Of a DNA stretch of 64,000 nt, positions 33,929-60,154 are shown piece by piece (the first letter of the stretch is position 1; each line of letters opens with the position of its first letter). The notes below the pieces were generated by a model, which had not been told where the DNA came from, did not search any database, and saw only the letters and a list, made by a program, of their open reading frames with translations. Source of the DNA: a virus; IMG/VR virus record IMGVR_UViG_3300023174_000033, positions 62,001-126,000 of that record. One strand, written 5' to 3'. The translations under genes and the position numbers were made by a program.

Positions 33929-33978
33929 GTAGCCGAAGCGGGAATCGAACCCGCACGTCCTTGCGGACAAAGGATTTT

Positions 33979-34673
33979 CTTACTACTATAGTTTTCACTA
34001 CCCTTTCGGTTTGTAGTCTGGACTATACCTTAACCTTATCTTACGACTTAGGTTCTCCGTGTCTAGTCTCTACACCTTCTTCATTTCTGAAGCTTGGCTC
34101 GGTATTCCCATTTTAAAGGGTTCACCGAATTTACGGAGTTCTACTCAGAGATTTTCACCTCTGGCACTCATATTTTTCGCTCGATAGTTATCTGTAAATG
34201 AGTGGCAGTTTGGACATAATAATTGTATATTTTCAATTCTATTGTCAAATCTATCACCATTTATGTGATGTAGTTCAAGTGGGATATCAGAATCTAACCA
34301 TTTTGTCAAATTACACTTTACACAAACAGGTTCCATAATTTTCAACTTAAGAAGCTGATTCTTCAATTTATATGAAGAATAAGGTAAACCTGATGAATAA
34401 CATGAATTTTGAACCAATCTTGATGACAAATCTTTATTTTTTGACCAAGTCTTTCCTTTACTCCAAAGTTGGCCATGAAAATGAGAAGTGTCTAATCCAA
34501 ATTGTTTAATTCTAGTTTTTATATTCTGATAGTTTCCACCAGCTTCTTTAAGTCCAAGTTTTTGTAAAACTTGTCTAACAGAATAACACTCACTAACTAT
34601 AAGTTCTAAATTTTCTTTTGTATATTTATTGTTCATACATTATATATAAAAAATAGAATACAAAAAAAGAACC
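33979..34673 (-). mobile_element. Group I intron in the tRNA-Leu(UAA) anticodon
   Basis: The 695-nt intron ends in G just before exon AAAATCC. In the segment after the HNH gene, the core can be folded by eye. P3 is CTCCGT/ACGGAG, P4 uses TCGGT/ACCGA, P5 is CCC/GGG, P6 is CTTC/GAAG, P7 is GACTA/TAGTC, P8 is AACCT/AGGTT, and P9 is ACTAC/GTAGT with a GAAA tetraloop. The conserved stretches AGAGACTAGA and AAGGTATAGTCC match the R and S elements of group I introns. A hairpin CAGAG/CTCTG (P2) overlaps the HNH stop codon. GAGT(G)CC just before it can pair with exon GGACTT as P1, which would place the whole HNH gene in the P1 loop. Confidence 0.92.
34145..34636 (-). CDS. Intron-encoded HNH homing endonuclease
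   Basis: This 163-residue protein has an HNH core with structural zinc pairs Cys105/Cys108 and Cys141/Cys144, the catalytic pair His123-His124 in LELHHINGDRFDNR, the Asn-rich NIQLLCPNC segment, and His145. The N-terminal half (residues 5-50) contains a helix-turn-helix-like region (SVRQVLQKLGL) suitable for DNA recognition. It lies entirely inside the tRNA-Leu intron and should cut intron-less alleles of trnL to spread the intron. Its ATG is 37 nt inside the intron, and its 3' end overlaps predicted intron pairings. Confidence 0.93.
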   Translation of the reverse strand: MNNKYTKENLELIVSECYSVRQVLQKLGLKEAGGNYQNIKTRIKQFGLDTSHFHGQLWSKGKTWSKNKDLSSRLVQNSCYSSGLPYSSYKLKNQLLKLKIMEPVCVKCNLTKWLDSDIPLELHHINGDRFDNRIENIQLLCPNCHSFTDNYRAKNMSARGENL

Positions 34674-34708
34674 AAGTCCTTCGTGTATACCAGTTTCACC
34701 ATCCGGCC

Positions 34709-36646: not shown

Positions 36647-39600
36647 TTATTTGTATAATATTGTACCTGTTGTGGATGAGGAGAATGTTACCCCAAACGA
36701 ATTAACATCATTGTGAATTATACTAATTGGATTTATTACACTGTTATTAGTATCTAGTATCTGAACGATCGGGAAATATCCTAAGTTGTGTTGGACAAGG
36801 TATTCCGTACCACTGTTGAGTCCTGTGCCATCCAATGAATAACTACATCCAACTAGACTCGGTAACCAAGTTAATTGACCAATACCGTTTACTCCAATTG
36901 CAAAACTCGCAGATCCTCTAACATAATTCAGATTGACCCAACTATTTCCTATGGTGATACTGTTTGACGCACCATACTCAACACTGTTGCTTTCCAAGTG
37001 TATGTAAGGACCACTACCAGCTGTTGAACCGTCAATTAAATCAGATGCGGATACTTCAATTTTCGCCTCAAATGAAGGTGGATCAATATGAGAACCTCCA
37101 ATTATGTATTTACTTCTAATCTTAACTCTTTCCTCAACATCAACATTCGATATTGGGGCTTGGTAGAAATCCGATCTAGAATTATTAATACCAACCCCAG
37201 CTAATCCACCCGATACAAAATTTTCCCTACTTGAGTAAACTGCTGGATATAATTCGTTTGTGGTGTGGTCGTATTTGCTAGCACTTGGGTTAAATCCAAT
37301 AAGACCAGATGATTCAAGTACAAATGCGTATTCACTATTAGCCAAAGTCGCGCCTTTTATGTATCCATCTGTCGTTGAGTTGGAAATTTTAATTACATAA
37401 TCACCATCGTAAGACCATGAAGCGGTATTTCCAATTGTTAGAGTTTGGTCAAATGTGTAGATTGGAGCTGGTCCTTGTGGACCTGTGTCACCTTGATCGC
37501 CTTGAGGTCCCATCTCACCTTGTTCACCTTGTGGGCCCATCTCGCCTTGGTCACCTTGTGGGCCCATCTCGCCTTGGTCACCCTGTGGCCCCATTTCGCC
37601 TTGGTCACCCTGTGGCCCCATCTCACCTTGGTCACCCTGTGGCCCCATCTCACCTTGGTCACCCTGTGGCCCCATCTCACCTTGGTCACCCTGTGGCCCC
37701 ATCTCACCTTGGTCACCCTGTGGCCCCATCTCGCCTTGGTCACCCTGTGGCCCCATCTCACCTTGGTCACCCTGTGGCCCCATCTCACCTTGGTCACCCT
37801 GTGGCCCCATCTCACCTTGGTCACCCTGTGGCCCCATCTCACCTTGGTCACCCTGTGGCCCCATCTCACCTTGGAATCCTTGAGGACCAGTTACTCCTTG
37901 TACACCCTGGACACCCTGTAGACCCTGTGGACCAGTTATTCCTTGAACACCTTGGAATCCTTGTGGGCCAATCATACCTTGATGCCCTTGTGGGCCGAAA
38001 TCACCTTGGAATCCTTGTGGACCAGTAACACCTTGGAAACCTTGTGGACCGGTTGATCCCTGTGGACCAGATAGCCCTTGAAGACCTTGTGGACCAGTCA
38101 TACCTTGGAAACCTTGAGGACCGGTATCTCCTTGATATCCTTGTGGGCCCGTATTACCAAATGGCATGAAAGTGAAATTATAAATACTGTTAGGATAGAA
38201 TTGACCATTTGAGACAACAGGAGAGGAAAGACTCAACCCATAAACATTATTACTCTGTATTAGATTAACACCATAAACTGGGTAAATACCAACATTACTA
38301 GCTGTCAAAGCATCGGATACCTGTATCCATGTATTAATACCCTTATCAACAAATGTTTTTAGTGAATTAAACCAACCAGAGTAGTTTACCCCGTTGACAT
38401 CAGTTTTGTGAATTTTCAGATAATCATTCAGAGCGAAATTTGCATCTTCAATATCAAACTTACCAGTAGCAACACTGCCATTATCTAAACTCTCACATCT
38501 CCACTGTACCACAGTTTGTACTAAAGAAGTAACGGTTCCTTGTGGTCCTTCCAAACCTTGGAATCCCTGTGGACCCATATCACCCTGTGGACCACTTACA
38601 CCTTGGAAACCTTGTGGACCAGTCTCACCCTGTAATCCTTGTGGACCACTATAACCTTGAGGGCCAGTCATACCTTGTGGACCAGTCTCACCCTGTAATC
38701 CTTGTGGACCACTATAACCTTGAGGGCCAGTTACACCCTGTAATCCCTGTGGGCCAATAATACCCTGAAAACCTTGAGGGCCAGTTTCACCCTGTGACCC
38801 TTGAGGCCCAGACAACCCTTGAACCCCCTGTGGACCAGTATCACCTTGATTACCTTGGGGACCACTGTAACCCTGTGGACCACTGTAACCCTGTGGACCA
38901 AAATCACCTTGGAATCCTTGCGGACCTGTAATTCCTTGAACACCAGTTGATCCAGTTGATCCAACCGAACCATTAGCCACCCAAGTTACGTTATAAAGTT
39001 GCTCAGCAGCGAAAGATCCACTTGAAACAACAGCGGTTGAATCCACTTTAACAGAGTAGGTTGTGCCGTTGCCGGTCACACCAGTTACTCTATATAGCCC
39101 TGTATTACTTGGAGTTAAAGCATCGTAAATTTGTAGATAACTAGTGTTTTCATTTTGAACAAATATTCTAAGTTGATCAAACCATAATGAGTAATCTACA
39201 CTTTGTATATCTTGTTTATGGAAATTAAATTCTGAATTATTAGCAAATGTATTATTTTCAGAACTGAAATAATTTGGGTTATTTAATAGAGGATTGAAAC
39301 CTTTATACTTCCACTGGACAATTGTTTGCACTAATGACACAACCGAACCTTGGTCACCTTTGTATCCTTGTGGACCTGTTTCGCCCTGTGGACCAGATAA
39401 TCCCTGTAATCCTTGTGGGCCAGTATTACCTTGGAATCCTTGTGGGCCAGTATTACCTTGAACACCTTGAAAACCTTGAGGACCAATATTACCTTGATTA
39501 CCTTGTGGACCAGTCATTCCTTGATTACCTTGTGGACCAGTCATTCCTTGGAAACCTTGTGGACCAGTCATTCCTTGGAAACCTTGTGGACCAGTTTCAC

Positions 39601-42600
39601 CCTGTGACCCAGTATTTCCCTGTGAACCTTGAACGCCTTGGAAACCTTGTGGACCAGTCATTCCTTGATTACCTTGTGGACCAGTATTGCCTTGCAAACC
39701 TTGTGGACCAGATAAACCTTGAGGGCCAGTCACACCTTGCAAACCTTGTGGACCAGATAAACCTTGAGGACCAGTCACACCTTGCAAACCTTGTGGACCA
39801 GATAAACCTTGAGGACCAGTTCTTCCGAATGGTATCCAAGTAACATTGAAAACACTGGTTGGATTTAGAGTTCCGTTACCAACGATTTTATTCCCAACGT
39901 TAATAGTGTATTTAGGATCCGTGTAAGATAAACTACTAACTGGAAATAAACCAGTGTTACTTACTGTTAGCGAATCGTAAACTTGTATATAAGCTAAACT
40001 TCCACCGTCTACAAATCCTTTTAATTGGTCAAACCAATCGTTATAATCAACACCATTTATATCAAATTTATTGAAAACAAACTGTGTTGGTGGTGATGTA
40101 GTGAAGTTCGAACTGTTTGATTCAAATCTTCCATTCGGAAGTGATCCACCTATCAATCCGTCATATCTCCACTGCACAATTGTTTGCACCACCGAAACAA
40201 CTACACCCTGTGGTCCGGTATCACCTTGTAGTCCTTGATTACCCTGTGGGCCACTGAATCCTTGTGGACCAGTTACACCTTGATATCCTTGTGGACCAAA
40301 TTTTCCTTGTGGTCCTGTATCACCTTGTAATCCTTGTGGACCAGATAATCCTTGTGGACCTGTCTCCCCTTGGAATCCTTGCGGACCGGTGTTACCCTGA
40401 AAACCCTGTGGACCAGATAGACCCTGAAGACCTTGTGGGCCACTGAATCCTTGTGGACCGGTGTCACCTTGATACCCCTGTGGACCCGTATTACCTTGTA
40501 GACCTTGTGGGCCGGTGTTACCCTGGAATCCTTGAGGACCTGTATCACCTTGATAACCTTGAGGACCCGTATTACCTTGTAGACCTTGCGCGCCGGTGTT
40601 ACCCTGGAATCCTTGTGGACCAGTCATACCTTGTAACCCTTGGGGACCAGTCATACCTTGTAACCCTTGTGGGCCGGTGTCACCTTGATAACCTTGTGGA
40701 CCACTATATCCTTGCGGGCCAGTCTCACCTTGGAAACCTTGTGGACCAGTCTCTCCCTGAACGCCAGTTGAACCGGTGCCCCCAACTGAACCATTAGCAA
40801 CCCATGTTACGTTGTATAGTTGTTCAGTCGCAAAACTACCATTTGAAACAACTGCTGTAGAATCAACAGATACAGAATAAGTTGTCCCGTTGCCGGTCAC
40901 ACCAGTTACTCTATATAGCCCTGTATTACTTGGAGTTAAAGCATCGTAAATTTGTAGATAACTAGTATTTTGATTCTCAATGAATATTCTTAATTGTTCA
41001 AACCAAAGAGAATAGTCAACACTTTGTATATCTTGTTTATGGAAATTAAATTCGTTATTACTACCAAATGCAGGATTTTGTGAACTGAAATAATTTGGGA
41101 ATGATCCTAATGGATTCGTACCTTTGTATTTCCACTGAACAATTGTTTGCACTAATGACACAACCGAACCTTGGTCACCTTTGTATCCTTGTGGACCAGA
41201 ATATCCTTGTGGACCAGATAAACCTTGCACACCTTGTGGACCTGTCTCACCTTGGAAACCTTGTGGACCTGTCTCACCTTGGAAACCTTGAGGGCCAGAT
41301 AAACCTTGAAGTCCCTGAGGCCCGGTCATACCTTGGAAACCCTGTGGGCCAGTTGAACCTTGATATCCTTGTGTGCCAGTGTTTCCTTGTGGACCTGTAT
41401 CACCTTGCAAACCTTGTGGACCAGTTGAACCTTGAAACCCCTGTGGACCAGATAATCCCTGTAAACCTTGTGGACCAGATAAACCTTGTAGTCCTTGTGG
41501 ACCGGTATCACCTTGGAAACCTTGTGGGCCGAAATCACCTTGGAAACCTTGTGGGCCTGTAACTCCTTGTAGTCCCTGGGAGCCACTGTATCCTTGTGGA
41601 CCAGTTATTCCTTGGAAACCTTGGGGTCCTGTTTCACCTTGATATCCTTGAGGACCTGTATTACCTTGAGATCCTGTGTTGCCCTGTGGACCTGTATTAC
41701 CTTGGAATCCTTGAGGACCTGTATTACCTTGGAATCCTTGAGGACCTGTGTCGCCTTGATAACCTTGTGGACCACTAAAACCCTGTGGACCAGTGTCACC
41801 TTGTGGACCAGTTGGTCCGGTAGCACCTATGGAACCATTTACGAACCAACCAATGTTATATATGTTGTTACCTGTAAACGTGCCACTACCAACTATAGCT
41901 GGAACGTCTGTAAAGATATAGTAGCTATGGGTACTAAATACTTGAGAAGGACTTGTCTGTGTAGCAGCAAGAACTTTGTAGAATCCAGTTATACTCTGAG
42001 TTGTTGAATCATAGATTTGTAAGTATGAAGGATTTTCATTATTAACAAACTTTTGCAATTGATCAAACCAGAGTGAATAACTAACTGAGTTGATATCCCT
42101 AAATTCAAATCTGAAATAAGGGTTAGTTGGTAAATCAATACTACTAGTTTCAAAATAACCTTGGGTTAGGCCGCCACCCAATAAACCACCATACTTATAT
42201 TGTATTATGGTTTGGACCATGGAAACAACTAATCCGTCAACTCCTTGTGGGCCGGTATCACCTTGGAATCCTTGTGGGCCAAAGTCTCCTTGGAATCCTT
42301 GAGGTCCACTAAATCCTTGGGTGCCTTGTGGGCCGGTATCGCCTTGTGAACCTTGTGGGCCAGATAATCCTTGTGGACCAGTGTTTCCTTGATATCCTTG
42401 TGGACCAGTGTTTCCTTGATATCCTTGTGGGCCAGATAATCCTTGATGTCCCTGTGGACCAGTGTCTCCCTGTGATCCTTGTGGACCAGTATCTCCTTGA
42501 AAACCTTGAGGACCAGTGTCTCCCTGATAACCCTGCGGACCACTTTCGCCTTGAAAACCTTGAGGACCAGTGTCTCCCTGATAACCCTGCGGACCGGTAT

Positions 42601-45196
42601 CACCTTGATAACCCTGCGGACCACTTTCTCCTTGATAACCCTGCGGACCAGTATCACCTTGATAACCCTGCGGACCAGTATTACCTTGGAATCCCTGTGG
42701 ACCACTTTCTCCTTGAAAACCTTGCGGACCAGTATCACCCTGATATCCTTGCGGACCGGTATCTCCCTGTAGTCCCTGTGGGCCAGTATCACCTTGATAT
42801 CCCTGTGCCCCCTGTGGGCCAGTATCACCTTGATATCCTTGCGGACCGGTATCACCTTGAAATCCTTGATCACCTTGTGGGCCAGTATCACCTTGTGATC
42901 CCTGTGGGCCAGTATCACCTTGATAACCCTGTGGGCCAGTATCTCCTTGAAATCCTTGATCACCTTGTGGGCCAGTATCACCTTGATATCCTTGAGGACC
43001 GGTATCTCCCTGAACGCCTTGAGGACCAGTCTCACCTTGGAAACCTTGAGGACCAGTCTCACCTTGAACACCAGTTGAACCAGTACCACCAAATGATCCA
43101 TTAGCAACCCAAGTAACATTATAAACTTGTTCTGTTGCGAAACTTCCATTTGACACTAATGCGGTTGAGTCAACCGAAATTGAATAAGTTGAACTTCCAT
43201 ATGTAACACCAGTCACTCGGTATAGACCAGTGTTACTGGATGTTAAAGCATCATATACTTGTAAATAACTTACATTTTGACTATCTACGAAAGTTAAGAG
43301 TTGTTGAAACCAAACTGAATAATCTATGGATTGATTATCTAGTTTATTGAAAATAAATTCACTATTACTAGCAAAAGTAGGTTGATCGGAAGTAAAATAT
43401 TTTGATACCGGTTCAGTTGCTGAATTTAGACCTTGGTATTTCCACTGAACAACAGTTTGAACTAATGAAACAACAACCCCCTGTGGACCTTGTTCACCTT
43501 GAGTTCCGGAAAAACCTTGAGGACCGGATAATCCTTGAACACCCTGTGGGCCAATTTCCCCTTGTGGGCCACTTTCTCCTTGAAAACCTTGCGGACCAGT
43601 ATCACCTTGATGCCCTTGCGGACCAGTATCACCCTGTAGTCCCTGTGGACCTGTTTCACCTTGATACCCCTGTGCCCCCTGTGGACCTGTTTCACCCTGG
43701 TAACCTTGTGGGCCAGAAATACCTTGCACACCTTGTGGACCAGTTTCTCCTTGGAATCCCTGTGGGCCGGTATCACCTTGATATCCCTGTGGACCTGATA
43801 AACCTTGTAGTCCTTGTGGACCCGTCAAACCTTGTGGACCAGTTAAACCTTGATAACCCTGTGGGCCAGAAAGTCCTTGTGGACCCGTGAAACCTTGTGG
43901 GCCTTGTGGACCGGTGTCACCTTGATAACCTTGAACTCCGGTTTCTCCTTGCCAACCTTGTGGACCAGAAACACCTTGAGGACCTGTAGTGCCTTGGAAA
44001 CCTTGAACACCAGTACTGCCCTGCCATCCTTGTGGACCAGAAAGTCCTTGTGGACCAGTAACACCCTGGAAACCTTGAACACCAGTACTACCCTGCCATC
44101 CTTGTGGACCAGATAACCCCTGTAATCCTTGTGGACCAGTAAAACCTTGATATCCTTGCACACCAGTGTTTCCCTGCCATCCTTGTGGACCAGATAAACC
44201 CTGGAATCCTTGTGGACCAGTCATACCTTGATATCCTTGTGGACCAGATAACCCCTGTAAACCTTGTGGACCTGTATCACCTTGCAAACCTTGTGGGCCG
44301 GTTCTACCTTGGAATCCCTGTGGACCAGTTCTACCTTGATAACCTTGAGGCCCAGATAAACCTTGAAAACCCTGTGGGCCACCAGAACCTTGAGAACCAG
44401 TGGCACCACCACCGGTTATAATCTTACCACTGAATTGTTGGTCAAAAGTAACAACGTAAGTATCTGTACTAATATAATTAACAGAATATGAAGCTGGTTG
44501 AATGTTTACGTTACCATTGGAGGTATCAACTGCTTGTACTAGTGGATATCCATTGAAACTATGTGTAACAGTAACTTGAGTTTTATTAGAAAAGTCTGTT
44601 ATAAAATTTGAGACAGCATCAAGACCTCTCGGACCTTGAACACCTTGTGGTCCACTCAAACCCTGAAAACCAGTATTGCCTCTACCTGGGTTTGTAGCCC
44701 AACCAATTGTATAGGTTCTCCCATCTACAAATACACCACCAACTGCAATTGGTTGCACATTTAGATCAAACCCCGTAAATCCATCATCTACAATATTTGT
44801 TACTTGAAAAAGAGCTCTGTTTAGAGGGTCTTGATCTTCAACTATATTTAAATAACTTATTTGTTCACGGTCAACAAAAACTTTCAATTGTTGTAACCAA
44901 GGGGAATAATCCACACCATAAAGGTCAATATATTGAATACTTAAAGAAGTAATAAATTCAGGATCGTCATTATTTGCAACAAATTTTTGTATGGTTGTAA
45001 GATTACCACCAGCTAGATATTTCCATTTTGATGAAGGTGAAGATAATTGCACTACCACGCCCTGTGGTCCTGTTTCGCCCTTTGGTGGTAAATCTACCGG
45101 ATTCCCAAATCCATCGTAGAATTCATTTCCGTTTATAACTTGTACTAATCGTTGATATGTACCTGATACGGTTGTTCCGGTTAAATTATATGACAT
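36647..45196 (-). CDS. Giant collagen-like phage fibre protein (2849 residues)
   Basis: The protein alternates long G-P-Q-G-x-Q-G collagen-like tracts with globular modules. Modules lie at about 44680-45060, 43090-43470, 41815-42240, 40770-41170, 39830-40205, 38965-39345 and 38155-38540. Each begins near [13 protein letters not shown] and contains [14 protein letters not shown]-type and YLQIYDALT-type segments. A different small beta domain ([17 protein letters not shown], near 44450-44600) recurs at the extreme C-terminus as [17 protein letters not shown]. The C-terminal 270 residues form the head. Collagen tracts in phage fibres are expected to form triple helices, so a trimeric, very long receptor fibre is likely. 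AATATATAG lies upstream of the start. One frame is open throughout. Confidence 0.9.
37505..37880 (-). repeat. 27-bp tandem repeat array (14 copies) in the fibre gene
   Basis: Fourteen units spaced exactly 27 bp (the CAT of each Met codon runs from 37511 to 37862) encode GDQGEMGPQ. Units differ by only a few synonymous or single changes, so the array is recent and its copy number is probably variable. Confidence 0.95.
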
Positions 45197-58142: not shown

Positions 58143-58912
58143 ATTGCCATATTTTTCATTTTATCAACATTACCAATGGCATCCTTTGATTGGACTGTTA
58201 ATTCGTAAAGTTGTTCTTTATTTAGGGTTAAATATCTGTTATATAAATGTAAATTTCTGAAATATAGTTCTTGATTTATATTGCCACGAATATGCCACAA
58301 ATGATAACATTTATCTTTAGCTTGAAAATGGTTTAAATAATTTTTTACTTTTATTGATTGGTAATCATCTTCAGCTCCCCATCCCCAAAAATCCTCGTTC
58401 CATCCACAGATTTTCTCTAAAGCTTGCTTTTGGAATATTATTATCCCACCACAAAAAGGAACTTTTTGGTGGTCAGTTTCTCCTCTACCTGGCCTTACAA
58501 TTGAATATAATTGGTTTATATCACCAGTTTTCCAATATTGTTCTGTTTCATTATATTCCAAATCTACCACCGATGAATATGGGTTTATACATTCATATTC
58601 GGAGACCAAATTAATTGAATTCATTAAAGACTCTTTATTCATAACCAAATCCGCATCTCCGAAAACTATAACGTCAGATTGAGCACTCTTCCAAGCCACA
58701 TTGAAACACCAAGCTTTATTAAAGGGATGTTCATTTTGAAGGAATATGTGTTTAAATTTTACACCCAAATCAACAGTTGAGAGGTAAGAATTCTTATCAC
58801 TTTCCACTACGATTATTTCACAATCAAGTTCCGAAACCCAACCCAAAATTTTTTGTAGATTATGAATTCTGTCTGGTGAATTTCTATAAGCTATTATATA
58901 AGAAAATTTCAT
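58139..58912 (-). CDS. Family 2/7-like glycosyltransferase
   Basis: This 257-residue protein has SYIIAYRNSPDRIHNLQKIL at the start, VIVFGDADLVMNKES (D-x-D site near residue 84) and WNEDFWGWGAEDDYQSIKV (near residue 178), the G-W-G-x-E-D-D motif of galactosyltransferase C-terminal regions. It should transfer a sugar from a UDP donor. It is the first gene of the seven-gene cluster, and its ATG overlaps the stop of the Clp-type gene by 4 nt. Confidence 0.85.
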   Translation of the reverse strand: MKFSYIIAYRNSPDRIHNLQKILGWVSELDCEIIVVESDKNSYLSTVDLGVKFKHIFLQNEHPFNKAWCFNVAWKSAQSDVIVFGDADLVMNKESLMNSINLVSEYECINPYSSVVDLEYNETEQYWKTGDINQLYSIVRPGRGETDHQKVPFCGGIIIFQKQALEKICGWNEDFWGWGAEDDYQSIKVKNYLNHFQAKDKCYHLWHIRGNINQELYFRNLHLYNRYLTLNKEQLYELTVQSKDAIGNVDKMKNMAI

Positions 58913-60081
58913 TTTTTTGATTTTGACTTTTTAATTTTAACAACCATTTCTTCCTTTTCCTTATTATAATCAAGTAGAATTTTACTCCCCTTTGGTGGAT
59001 TTGACTTGATTATTTCTTCTGTGATTGGATCCTCAATGTACTTTTGTATTGCTCTCTTCAATGGTCTAGCGCCATATTCAGCATCGTATCCTTTTTCTGT
59101 GACATAGTCTTTAGCCGCATCTGTCAAATCAAAATCAAAATCTAAAGATGCGATCCTTTCTATCATTTTTTTCAACTCCACGTTGATTATCTTTTGAATA
59201 TCTTCTTTTTCCAAAGAATTAAAAGTTATCACTTCATCAATTCTGTTTAGAAATTCAGGCGCGAATGTTTTTTTCAATTCTTTCTCAATTACTTCTTTTG
59301 AGTCAGAACCCTTATTTGACTCTTTTGATTTTGTAGTAAACCCTATACCGGTTCCGAAATCTTTTAATTGTCTAGAACCAGTATTTGAGGTCATTATAAT
59401 TATAGTATTCTTAAAATCAACTTTTCTACCCATTGAGTCTGTTAGCTGACCATCATCTAAAACTTGTAGTAACATATTAAAGACTTCTGGGTGAGCTTTC
59501 TCAATTTCATCAAGTAAAATTACAGAATATGGACGCCTTCTTACTTTTTCAGTTAGTTGACCACCCTCGTCATGTCCGACATATCCTGGAGGAGCTCCAA
59601 CCAATCTTGAAGTAGCAAACTTCTCCATGAATTCACTCATGTCAATTCTTATAAGTGATTCAGAAGAATCAAATAAATGTTCAGCAAGTACCTTGGCTAG
59701 TTGAGTATTGTGACTCAATAAACCATTTGTATAATACCTTCTGTCAGAATTTCCATCTAACTCAAGATCAAACATCACTTCATTATAATTCAACTCTTCA
59801 ACAGAATCAACTTCTTCAATTCCATTTTCAGCAATTATTCTATCACCGACTTTTAAGTCTTTCACAAAAACTTCTTCCAAGTTTTCTCTGAAAAGAATAT
59901 GATTATCAGCACAATAAAGTATTGTTTTATTTTTAGTAGTTAGTCTAAATACATCATACTTTACTGTTTGATGTAAATATTTTATATCTACAAATCCTGA
60001 ATCAGTCAATACTTCAAAATCATCAACTTTGTAGGAATCTGTTATTTTTTTATCATATAATGATAATTCGCTTGCTTTCAT
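58909..60081 (-). CDS. Split-intein C-fragment fused to the C-terminal half of a Clp AAA+ ATPase
   Basis: The ATG at 60081 (MKASELSLYDKK) gives 390 residues; a TTG 21 nt upstream is unlikely. Residues 1-125 are a Hint/intein domain ending in YYTNGLLSHN. Thr126 begins a Clp D2 domain in the middle of its Walker A (GVGK|T), with TQLAKVLAEHL following. Walker B is VILLDEIEKAHPEVF (Asp191, Glu192), sensor 1 is TSNTG, the arginine finger lies in APEFLNRIDE, and sensor 2 is GARPLKRAI. The N-terminal and D1 domains, the first part of the P-loop and intein block A (with Cys1) are absent here. They must be encoded elsewhere if the protein is functional. Trans-splicing would then give a full ClpB/ClpC-like unfoldase. 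It overlaps the cluster gene by 4 nt. Confidence 0.88.
   Translation of the reverse strand: MKASELSLYDKKITDSYKVDDFEVLTDSGFVDIKYLHQTVKYDVFRLTTKNKTILYCADNHILFRENLEEVFVKDLKVGDRIIAENGIEEVDSVEELNYNEVMFDLELDGNSDRRYYTNGLLSHNTQLAKVLAEHLFDSSESLIRIDMSEFMEKFATSRLVGAPPGYVGHDEGGQLTEKVRRRPYSVILLDEIEKAHPEVFNMLLQVLDDGQLTDSMGRKVDFKNTIIIMTSNTGSRQLKDFGTGIGFTTKSKESNKGSDSKEVIEKELKKTFAPEFLNRIDEVITFNSLEKEDIQKIINVELKKMIERIASLDFDFDLTDAAKDYVTEKGYDAEYGARPLKRAIQKYIEDPITEEIIKSNPPKGSKILLDYNKEKEEMVVKIKKSKSKK
59707..60081 (-). other. C-terminal part of an atypically split intein
   Basis: The 125-residue segment contains DFEVLTDSGFVDIKYL, the block B-like YCADNHILF (with the conserved His), KDLKVGDRI, the block F-like MFDLELDG, and block G GLLSHN followed by Thr. 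The canonical first block with the N-terminal Cys and its following 20-25 residues is missing. This is the arrangement of inteins split very near their N-terminus, such as AceL-TerL. No endonuclease domain is present. Confidence 0.82.
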
Positions 60082-60154
60082 AAAATTAAAAAAGATTTTC
60101 AAGGGTTTTTATCAAACTAATTGAATTTGTTTAGAAAAAAATTTGAAAATAAAG

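Follow-up and report, generated by a model that had tools for sequence, protein, structure and literature searches.

Does the "ancient" anticodon site of tRNA-Leu(UAA), at which group I introns are textbook for cyanobacteria and plastids, mark old age, or is it a target that is hit repeatedly? And do endonucleases choose such a site, with ribozymes following? Both questions become testable with the giant-phage locus described here, which lies in a 64,000-nucleotide stretch of DNA (the window; bases 62001-126000 of a 464,605-bp IMG/VR virus record).

An interrupted tRNA-Leu(UAA) gene and its ribozyme

On the minus strand of the window, a tRNA-Leu(UAA) gene (34708-33930) is interrupted after U34 by a 695-nt intron (34673-33979; Table 1). 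With introns allowed, ARAGORN returned tRNA-Leu(taa) with a 695-nt intron at position 36, i.e. the same boundaries, and the joined exons give the complete, normal fold of a class II tRNA-Leu(taa); run without introns, the program missed this gene. UUA accounts for 26% of the leucine codons in 16 window genes, so that a tRNA-Leu(UAA) is plausibly useful to the phage.

Table 1. Coordinates (window numbering) of the split tRNA gene, its intron and the elements within the intron
Feature	Position	Strand	Remarks
5' exon of tRNA-Leu(UAA)	34674-34708	-	GGCCGGATGGTGAAACTGGTATACACGAAGGACTT, final base U34; ARAGORN with introns; joined exons give a 7-bp acceptor stem
Group I intron	33979-34673	-	695 nt; omega-G, its final base, at 33979; RF00028 and covariation
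Candidate promoter of the HNH gene, TATATATA	34641-34648	-	In the 37-nt ORF leader; suggested by ATATATA enrichment
HNH endonuclease ORF, 163 aa	34145-34636	-	PHROG_10822, E 7.6e-48; occupies the P1 loop; 3' end overlaps the guide sequence and P2
Guide sequence (IGS) GAGUGC	34163-34169	-	Doubles as codons for M-S-A; GAG invariant and GAGTGC nearly invariant in 32 introns
P2 hairpin CAGAG/CTCTG	34145-34163	-	5/5 pairs covary; overlaps the final HNH codons
P3 5' strand CUCCGU	34133-34138	-	6/6 pairs covary, 100% paired
P4 (UUCGGU/ACCGAG) and P5 (CCC/GGG)	34098-34129	-	Fold and covariation
P6 hairpin CUUC/GAAG	34079-34092	-	Fold and covariation
P7 5' strand GACUA, guanosine-binding helix	34064-34068	-	100% paired with 34021-34025; last pair switches A-U/U-A
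P3 3' strand ACGGAG	34055-34060	-	Covariation
P8 hairpin AACCU/AGGUU	34033-34054	-	Fold and covariation
P7 3' strand UAGUC	34021-34025	-	Covariation
P9 (ACUAC/GUAGU), enclosing P9.1 and P9.2	33982-34017	-	ACCAC/GUGGU to ACUAC/GUAGU covariation, phages and bacteria
3' exon of tRNA-Leu(UAA)	33930-33978	-	Begins AAAATCC; CCA not encoded; ARAGORN with introns

The covariance model RF00028 gave a 51.5-bit match at 34205-33997 (cut-off 50 bits; E 5e-12 over the 64-kb window), and this was the sole match above the cut-off over the whole record (E 5.9e-13). Without the ORF, the core has 191 nt and a fold energy of -55 kcal/mol (z = -5.3), a value equalled by no shuffle. We placed it in an alignment with 31 phage and bacterial introns of the same site, under a hand-made structure spanning P2-P9, including the P7 pseudoknot. 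Across the 32 introns, 93.6% of the cells are paired, compared with 74.7% in shuffles and 28-42% in slid controls; 309 cells are double-changed (shuffles 93, slid controls no more than 52); and the covariation score is 0.532, against 0.173 in shuffles. The P3/P7 pseudoknot core is present together with P4-P6, P8 and P9, and P3 and P7 are paired in every cell. The preliminary description, made from the letters alone, had called a group I intron at 33930-34708 with this exon junction and final G, and had proposed a tRNA scan with introns allowed and a covariance-model search as checks; both recovered the element as described, all of it on the minus strand.

The U.G pair of the 5' splice site is formed by U34 with the G of the GAGUGC guide, and the terminal G lies at 33979. 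The P10 pairing is apparently weaker in the window, where AUAU precedes GAG, as compared with AUUU in ORF-less introns. With no P7.1/P7.2, a short P5/P6 and the presence of P9.1/P9.2, the intron aligns with known IC3 tRNA introns, and this layout, judged by architecture and direct alignment, is compatible with subgroup IC3.

The HNH gene and the proposed mobility of the intron

The HNH gene that had been noticed inside the intron is indeed there, read from 34636 to 34145. Its HNH/zinc motif is intact, as H124, N136, H145 and the zinc-binding Cys 105, 108, 141 and 144 do not vary among 19 aligned relatives. Against the three nearest relatives dN is ~0.22-0.24 and dS 1.5-2.6 (dN/dS ~0.1-0.16), and since dN is far below dS, the ORF is under purifying selection. 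The AlphaFold model of the protein (pLDDT 83, pTM 0.52) has a helical N-terminal part and, C-terminally, an HNH motif surrounded by two strands and two helices; a fold search with this model gave weak best matches, mostly HNH nucleases, and a sequence search of the PDB gave no match. Relatives with 72-74% identity lie in the P1 loop of same-site introns of other phages. The final codons, AAT ATG AGT GCC AGA ... CTC TGA, also form the guide sequence and P2, and L253-L257 have the same overlap; this overlap and the wide spread of the arrangement go beyond the preliminary description. Directly upstream of start codons, ATATATA occurs in 14 of 55 window genes for 0.9 expected, a 16-fold enrichment. 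It is a candidate phage promoter, and the HNH gene may thus use a promoter of the phage.

The sequence itself shows the exons, the intron, the covarying core, an HNH gene that is intact and under selection, and several related phages in which this arrangement recurs; splicing, cleavage and copying we infer from this anatomy and from what phage group I introns are known to do. The pre-tRNA would splice itself, joining the exons into ...GGACUUAAAAUCC..., so that a UUA-reading tRNA is regained. The HNH protein, expressed probably from a promoter inside the intron, would nick or cut the anticodon region of intron-free tRNA-Leu(UAA) genes, and the intron would be copied into the cut genes by recombination during co-infection; as the intron breaks the HNH target, its carrier would be protected. 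We consider it likely that we are dealing with an HNH homing endonuclease aimed at tRNA-Leu and riding recurrent group I introns, the introns at this site being repeated colonisations of one conserved target rather than one inherited ancient intron.

A suitable target exists in nature, as an intronless phage tRNA-Leu(UAA) gene (L383) has the same bases, at least over the 25 that were searched, across the window's insertion point. Exact spliced-exon scans for intronless alleles returned this single, distant one for the window, at least 24 for a third exon pair and none for the exons of L013. Comparison by blastn of all intron-plus with intronless loci gave no pair aligned across the junction; spliced-exon scans and a synteny search found no two nearly identical phage genomes that differ in the presence of the intron; and among 80 relatives of the neighbouring DUF2828-like gene, none has a tRNA-Leu at that place. 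This would fit an intron that is no longer mobile and is vertically inherited, its HNH gene being kept, under purifying selection, for interference on competitor or host tRNA-Leu genes or as a folding aid. Phage intron nucleases can be co-infection weapons (PMC12908238; PMC11878797), and interference is reported for the PhiPA3 intron nuclease. We nevertheless regard such an immobile intron as unlikely: the patchy distribution, an ORF-less sister (L077), HNH swaps between ribozymes and loops, and free-standing copies point to continuing mobility, and interference and homing share the same cut, so that the two are partly compatible. The suggestion in the preliminary description that the HNH gene would make the intron mobile is plausible, given the intact residues, the low dN/dS and the presence of the same HNH family in many tRNA-Leu introns.

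The proposed homing element resembles the phage protein-gene introns of the I-HmuI, I-BasI and I-PfoP3I type in combining a phage, a group I ribozyme, an HNH nuclease and a homing logic; unlike them, it lies in a tRNA, its HNH belongs to PHROG_10822, and its core resembles tRNA introns. It also has a parallel in the Synechocystis tRNA-fMet intron with I-Ssp6803I (Bonocora and Shub 2001, as cited in PMC3984707), a group I intron in a tRNA anticodon whose endonuclease is, by that secondary account, specific for the same anticodon region. There, however, the tRNA is a different one and the intron is bacterial. The nuclease fold of I-Ssp6803I is PD-(D/E)XK, not HNH.

The HNH family and tRNA-Leu

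Loci picked by HNH similarity alone numbered 38 after removal of near copies, and 13 of these score as intron-borne, the clear cases being in Leu(UAA) and three (L285, L369, L377) being doubtful. The family occupies the P1 loop (L1) in the window, L013, L067 and L253-257, and the P6 loop in L006, L021, L098, L186 and L240, these introns being of different lineages. In the protein tree, the window HNH groups with those of L253/L254/L256 (support 100/98), and the intron-borne L033 and the free-standing L271 are sisters (98/88). Of the free-standing copies, 21 lie at most 150 nt from a tRNA, and for 15 of them this nearest neighbour is a tRNA-Leu, compared with 19% of the tRNAs of the loci (P 2.5e-7) or with a 10.6% background when neighbours are left out (P 7e-11). 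Free-standing copies lie between Leu(UAG) and Leu(UAA) (L259), after an intact Leu(UAA) (L260-264, L268, L279) or overlapping one (L271), and the HNH gene abuts a tRNA-Leu in Citrobacter phage Michonne, Pseudomonas phage PPSC2, Gordonia phage GodonK and cyanophage S-CRM01. Some loci scored as free-standing are undetected introns (L265, L270 and L285 turned out to be, or probably to be, introns); a count of 15 switches between the intron-borne and free-standing states is for this reason an overestimate and was not used. RF00028 at E 0.001, applied to 20 HNH loci, missed most introns with large insertions, and a non-match there is no evidence. These comparisons indicate that the HNH family is tied to the tRNA-Leu gene and not to one ribozyme, and that it shifts among intron lineages, between the P1 and P6 loops and between intron-borne and free-standing states.

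It could be argued that tRNA arrays are general landing hotspots for endonucleases and that the link with tRNA-Leu reflects no target specificity. SegB of T6, like the present family, has a gene that adjoins tRNA genes and a presumed target in tRNA DNA, and SegB-type endonucleases occur in the tRNA arrays of phages with no preference among isotypes (PMC13096335); moreover, HNH copies in Rhodococcus phage Dorin and phage V45v66 abut other tRNAs. SegB differs, however, in being free-standing, whereas the family of the window is HNH and prefers tRNA-Leu. The 15 of 21 free-standing copies, where 11-19% would be expected, and the fact that all confidently recognised intron-borne copies are in Leu(UAA), make the hotspot explanation quite unlikely.

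Spread and descent of introns at the leucine site

Our scan of viral contigs searched for the 3' splice junction and is biased to one 3' end, so that its counts are minima and not frequency estimates. From 120 stretches it gave at least 54 fully parsed viral tRNA-Leu(UAA) introns, at least 20 of them longer than 450 nt; with roughly 25-30 or more further viral loci that have Leu-type or UAA-anticodon exons outside the parser, there are at least ~80 in all. Same-site introns occur in three huge phages, one with an HNH in the P6 loop (LR756511, 595 kb) and two ORF-less (LR756501, 735 kb, and, unannotated, Agrobacterium phage Atu_ph07, 490 kb). A 3'-junction scan of bacteria with the same bias gave, from 117 stretches, at least 59 Leu introns alongside introns in other tRNAs; the Leu introns are those of cyanobacteria, alpha-, beta- and gammaproteobacteria, Bacteroidota, Acidobacteriota and Bacilli bins. 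Non-cyanobacterial tRNA-Leu(TAA) genes with a putative group I intron have precedents in the Beggiatoaceae Beggiatoa and Thiomargarita (PMC4853749); those introns are chromosomal, and the accessible part of that report mentions no phage or HNH link.

A 2014 review held phage introns to be confined to protein genes (PMC3984707), and phage tRNA introns go without mention in the accessible parts of recent papers on jumbo phages and on introns and of a 2025 paper on an intron database (subscription papers and preprints aside). Phage tRNA-Leu introns, some with endonucleases, are thus common in a niche that the review called empty, and phage tRNA genes join the loci contested by mobile elements. 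The same intron at the same site was also seen in class I (short-variable-arm) phage tRNAs with a UAA anticodon (L022, L048, L072, L092, L095, L102, L105, L118). Another phage tRNA intron, group I-like and at the anticodon, is found in Microcoleus phage My-WqHQDG (L011), in a tRNA-Arg annotated with 286 nt, and bacterial group I-like introns occur in several more tRNA types, for instance at actinobacterial and proteobacterial loci (L182, L183, L142, L226, L227, L212 and others).

The insertion site had been described as exactly that of the cyanobacterial and plastid introns, and this holds: the cyanobacterial loci share the ...GGACTT/intron/AAAATCC junction (in RNA, ...GGACUU/intron...G/AAAAUCC), the insertion after U34 and the P1-P9 core architecture. 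Descent is another matter. In a phylogeny of 143 intron cores (108 columns, pruned of long branches, plastid introns left out), the window and eight phage introns form one clade (100/99) and eleven cyanobacterial Leu introns a separate one (100/100). Forcing the two clades together lowers lnL by 46.7 (p-AU 0.066; without pruning, 0.097), a single clade of all Leu-site introns is rejected (p-AU 1.8e-6), and one of all phage Leu-site introns is marginal (p 0.045). The nearest cores to that of the window are all viral; the closest, in another phage (L077), is 98% identical and has no ORF, so the HNH gene was gained or lost within the lineage. Introns of other tRNAs (Arg, Ile, Met and more) are interspersed among the Leu-site introns; a shared site is therefore no proof of shared descent. 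Apart from the clade of the window, phages have at least one other Leu-site lineage that is divergent and well separated (15 members of the tree, 97/96); it comprises L021, L025, L038, L051, L079, L098, L100 and relatives and has a GAGCTAAA...GACTATATACC core. The tree thus indicates that the Leu site has been filled more than once.

The preliminary description had linked the phage copy to the ancient intron and had proposed a core phylogeny; its outcome, a separate phage clade, goes against that descent, not against the intron, as the description itself had stated for such a result. The identical site, the same general IC3-type core, and the presence of the same HNH family at a tRNA-Leu of cyanophage S-CRM01 might suggest that the phage intron branched off, recently or long ago, from the cyanobacterial/plastid trnL(UAA) intron, having been acquired from a host cyanobacterium and equipped with an HNH gene. 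We consider this very unlikely, given the separate, fully supported clades, the cost of uniting them, the viral nearest cores with other-tRNA introns falling between, and the rejection of a single Leu-site clade. The two introns also differ at the P9/3' end (GACTAC...GTAGTAAG in the window, AATTCTC...GAGAATG in cyanobacteria), and the window copy lies in a phage genome and carries an HNH gene, whereas the cyanobacterial loci examined are ORF-less. Direct kinship with the cyanobacterial/plastid intron is disfavoured, though not formally rejected, and not supported by a tree of few columns. As for an artefact or a decayed element, through chance pairing or mis-assembly, the RF00028 score lies just 1.5 bits above the curated cut-off, but the exact tRNA halves, the many independent homologues, the covariation and the intact ORF refute it.

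Beyond repeated colonisation of one target, one might tentatively speculate that the Leu(UAA) anticodon is an endonuclease-defined niche, in which a tRNA-Leu-specific HNH circulates in phages and repeatedly joins different ribozymes; phages would then be a reservoir seeding bacterial Leu introns and perhaps the cyanobacterial/plastid ancestor, a proposal that we hold to be possible though doubtful.

Two further features of this phage deserve mention. A ClpB-like chaperone contains a naturally split intein, encoded by window 58909-60102 (minus strand) and by L381:154-1644 (G000:C1, near 170 kb). The gene for the N-part (496 aa) ends ...FLFLGPTGVGK/CVTKDTS..., and the second gene starts with the intein C-part ending ...TNGLLSHN/TQLAKVLAEH..., followed by ClpB D2; the break is within the Walker A motif, and the halves lie ~50 kb apart on opposite strands. 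Window 36647-45196 (minus strand) encodes a 2849-aa collagen-like GPQG-repeat protein, probably a fibre.
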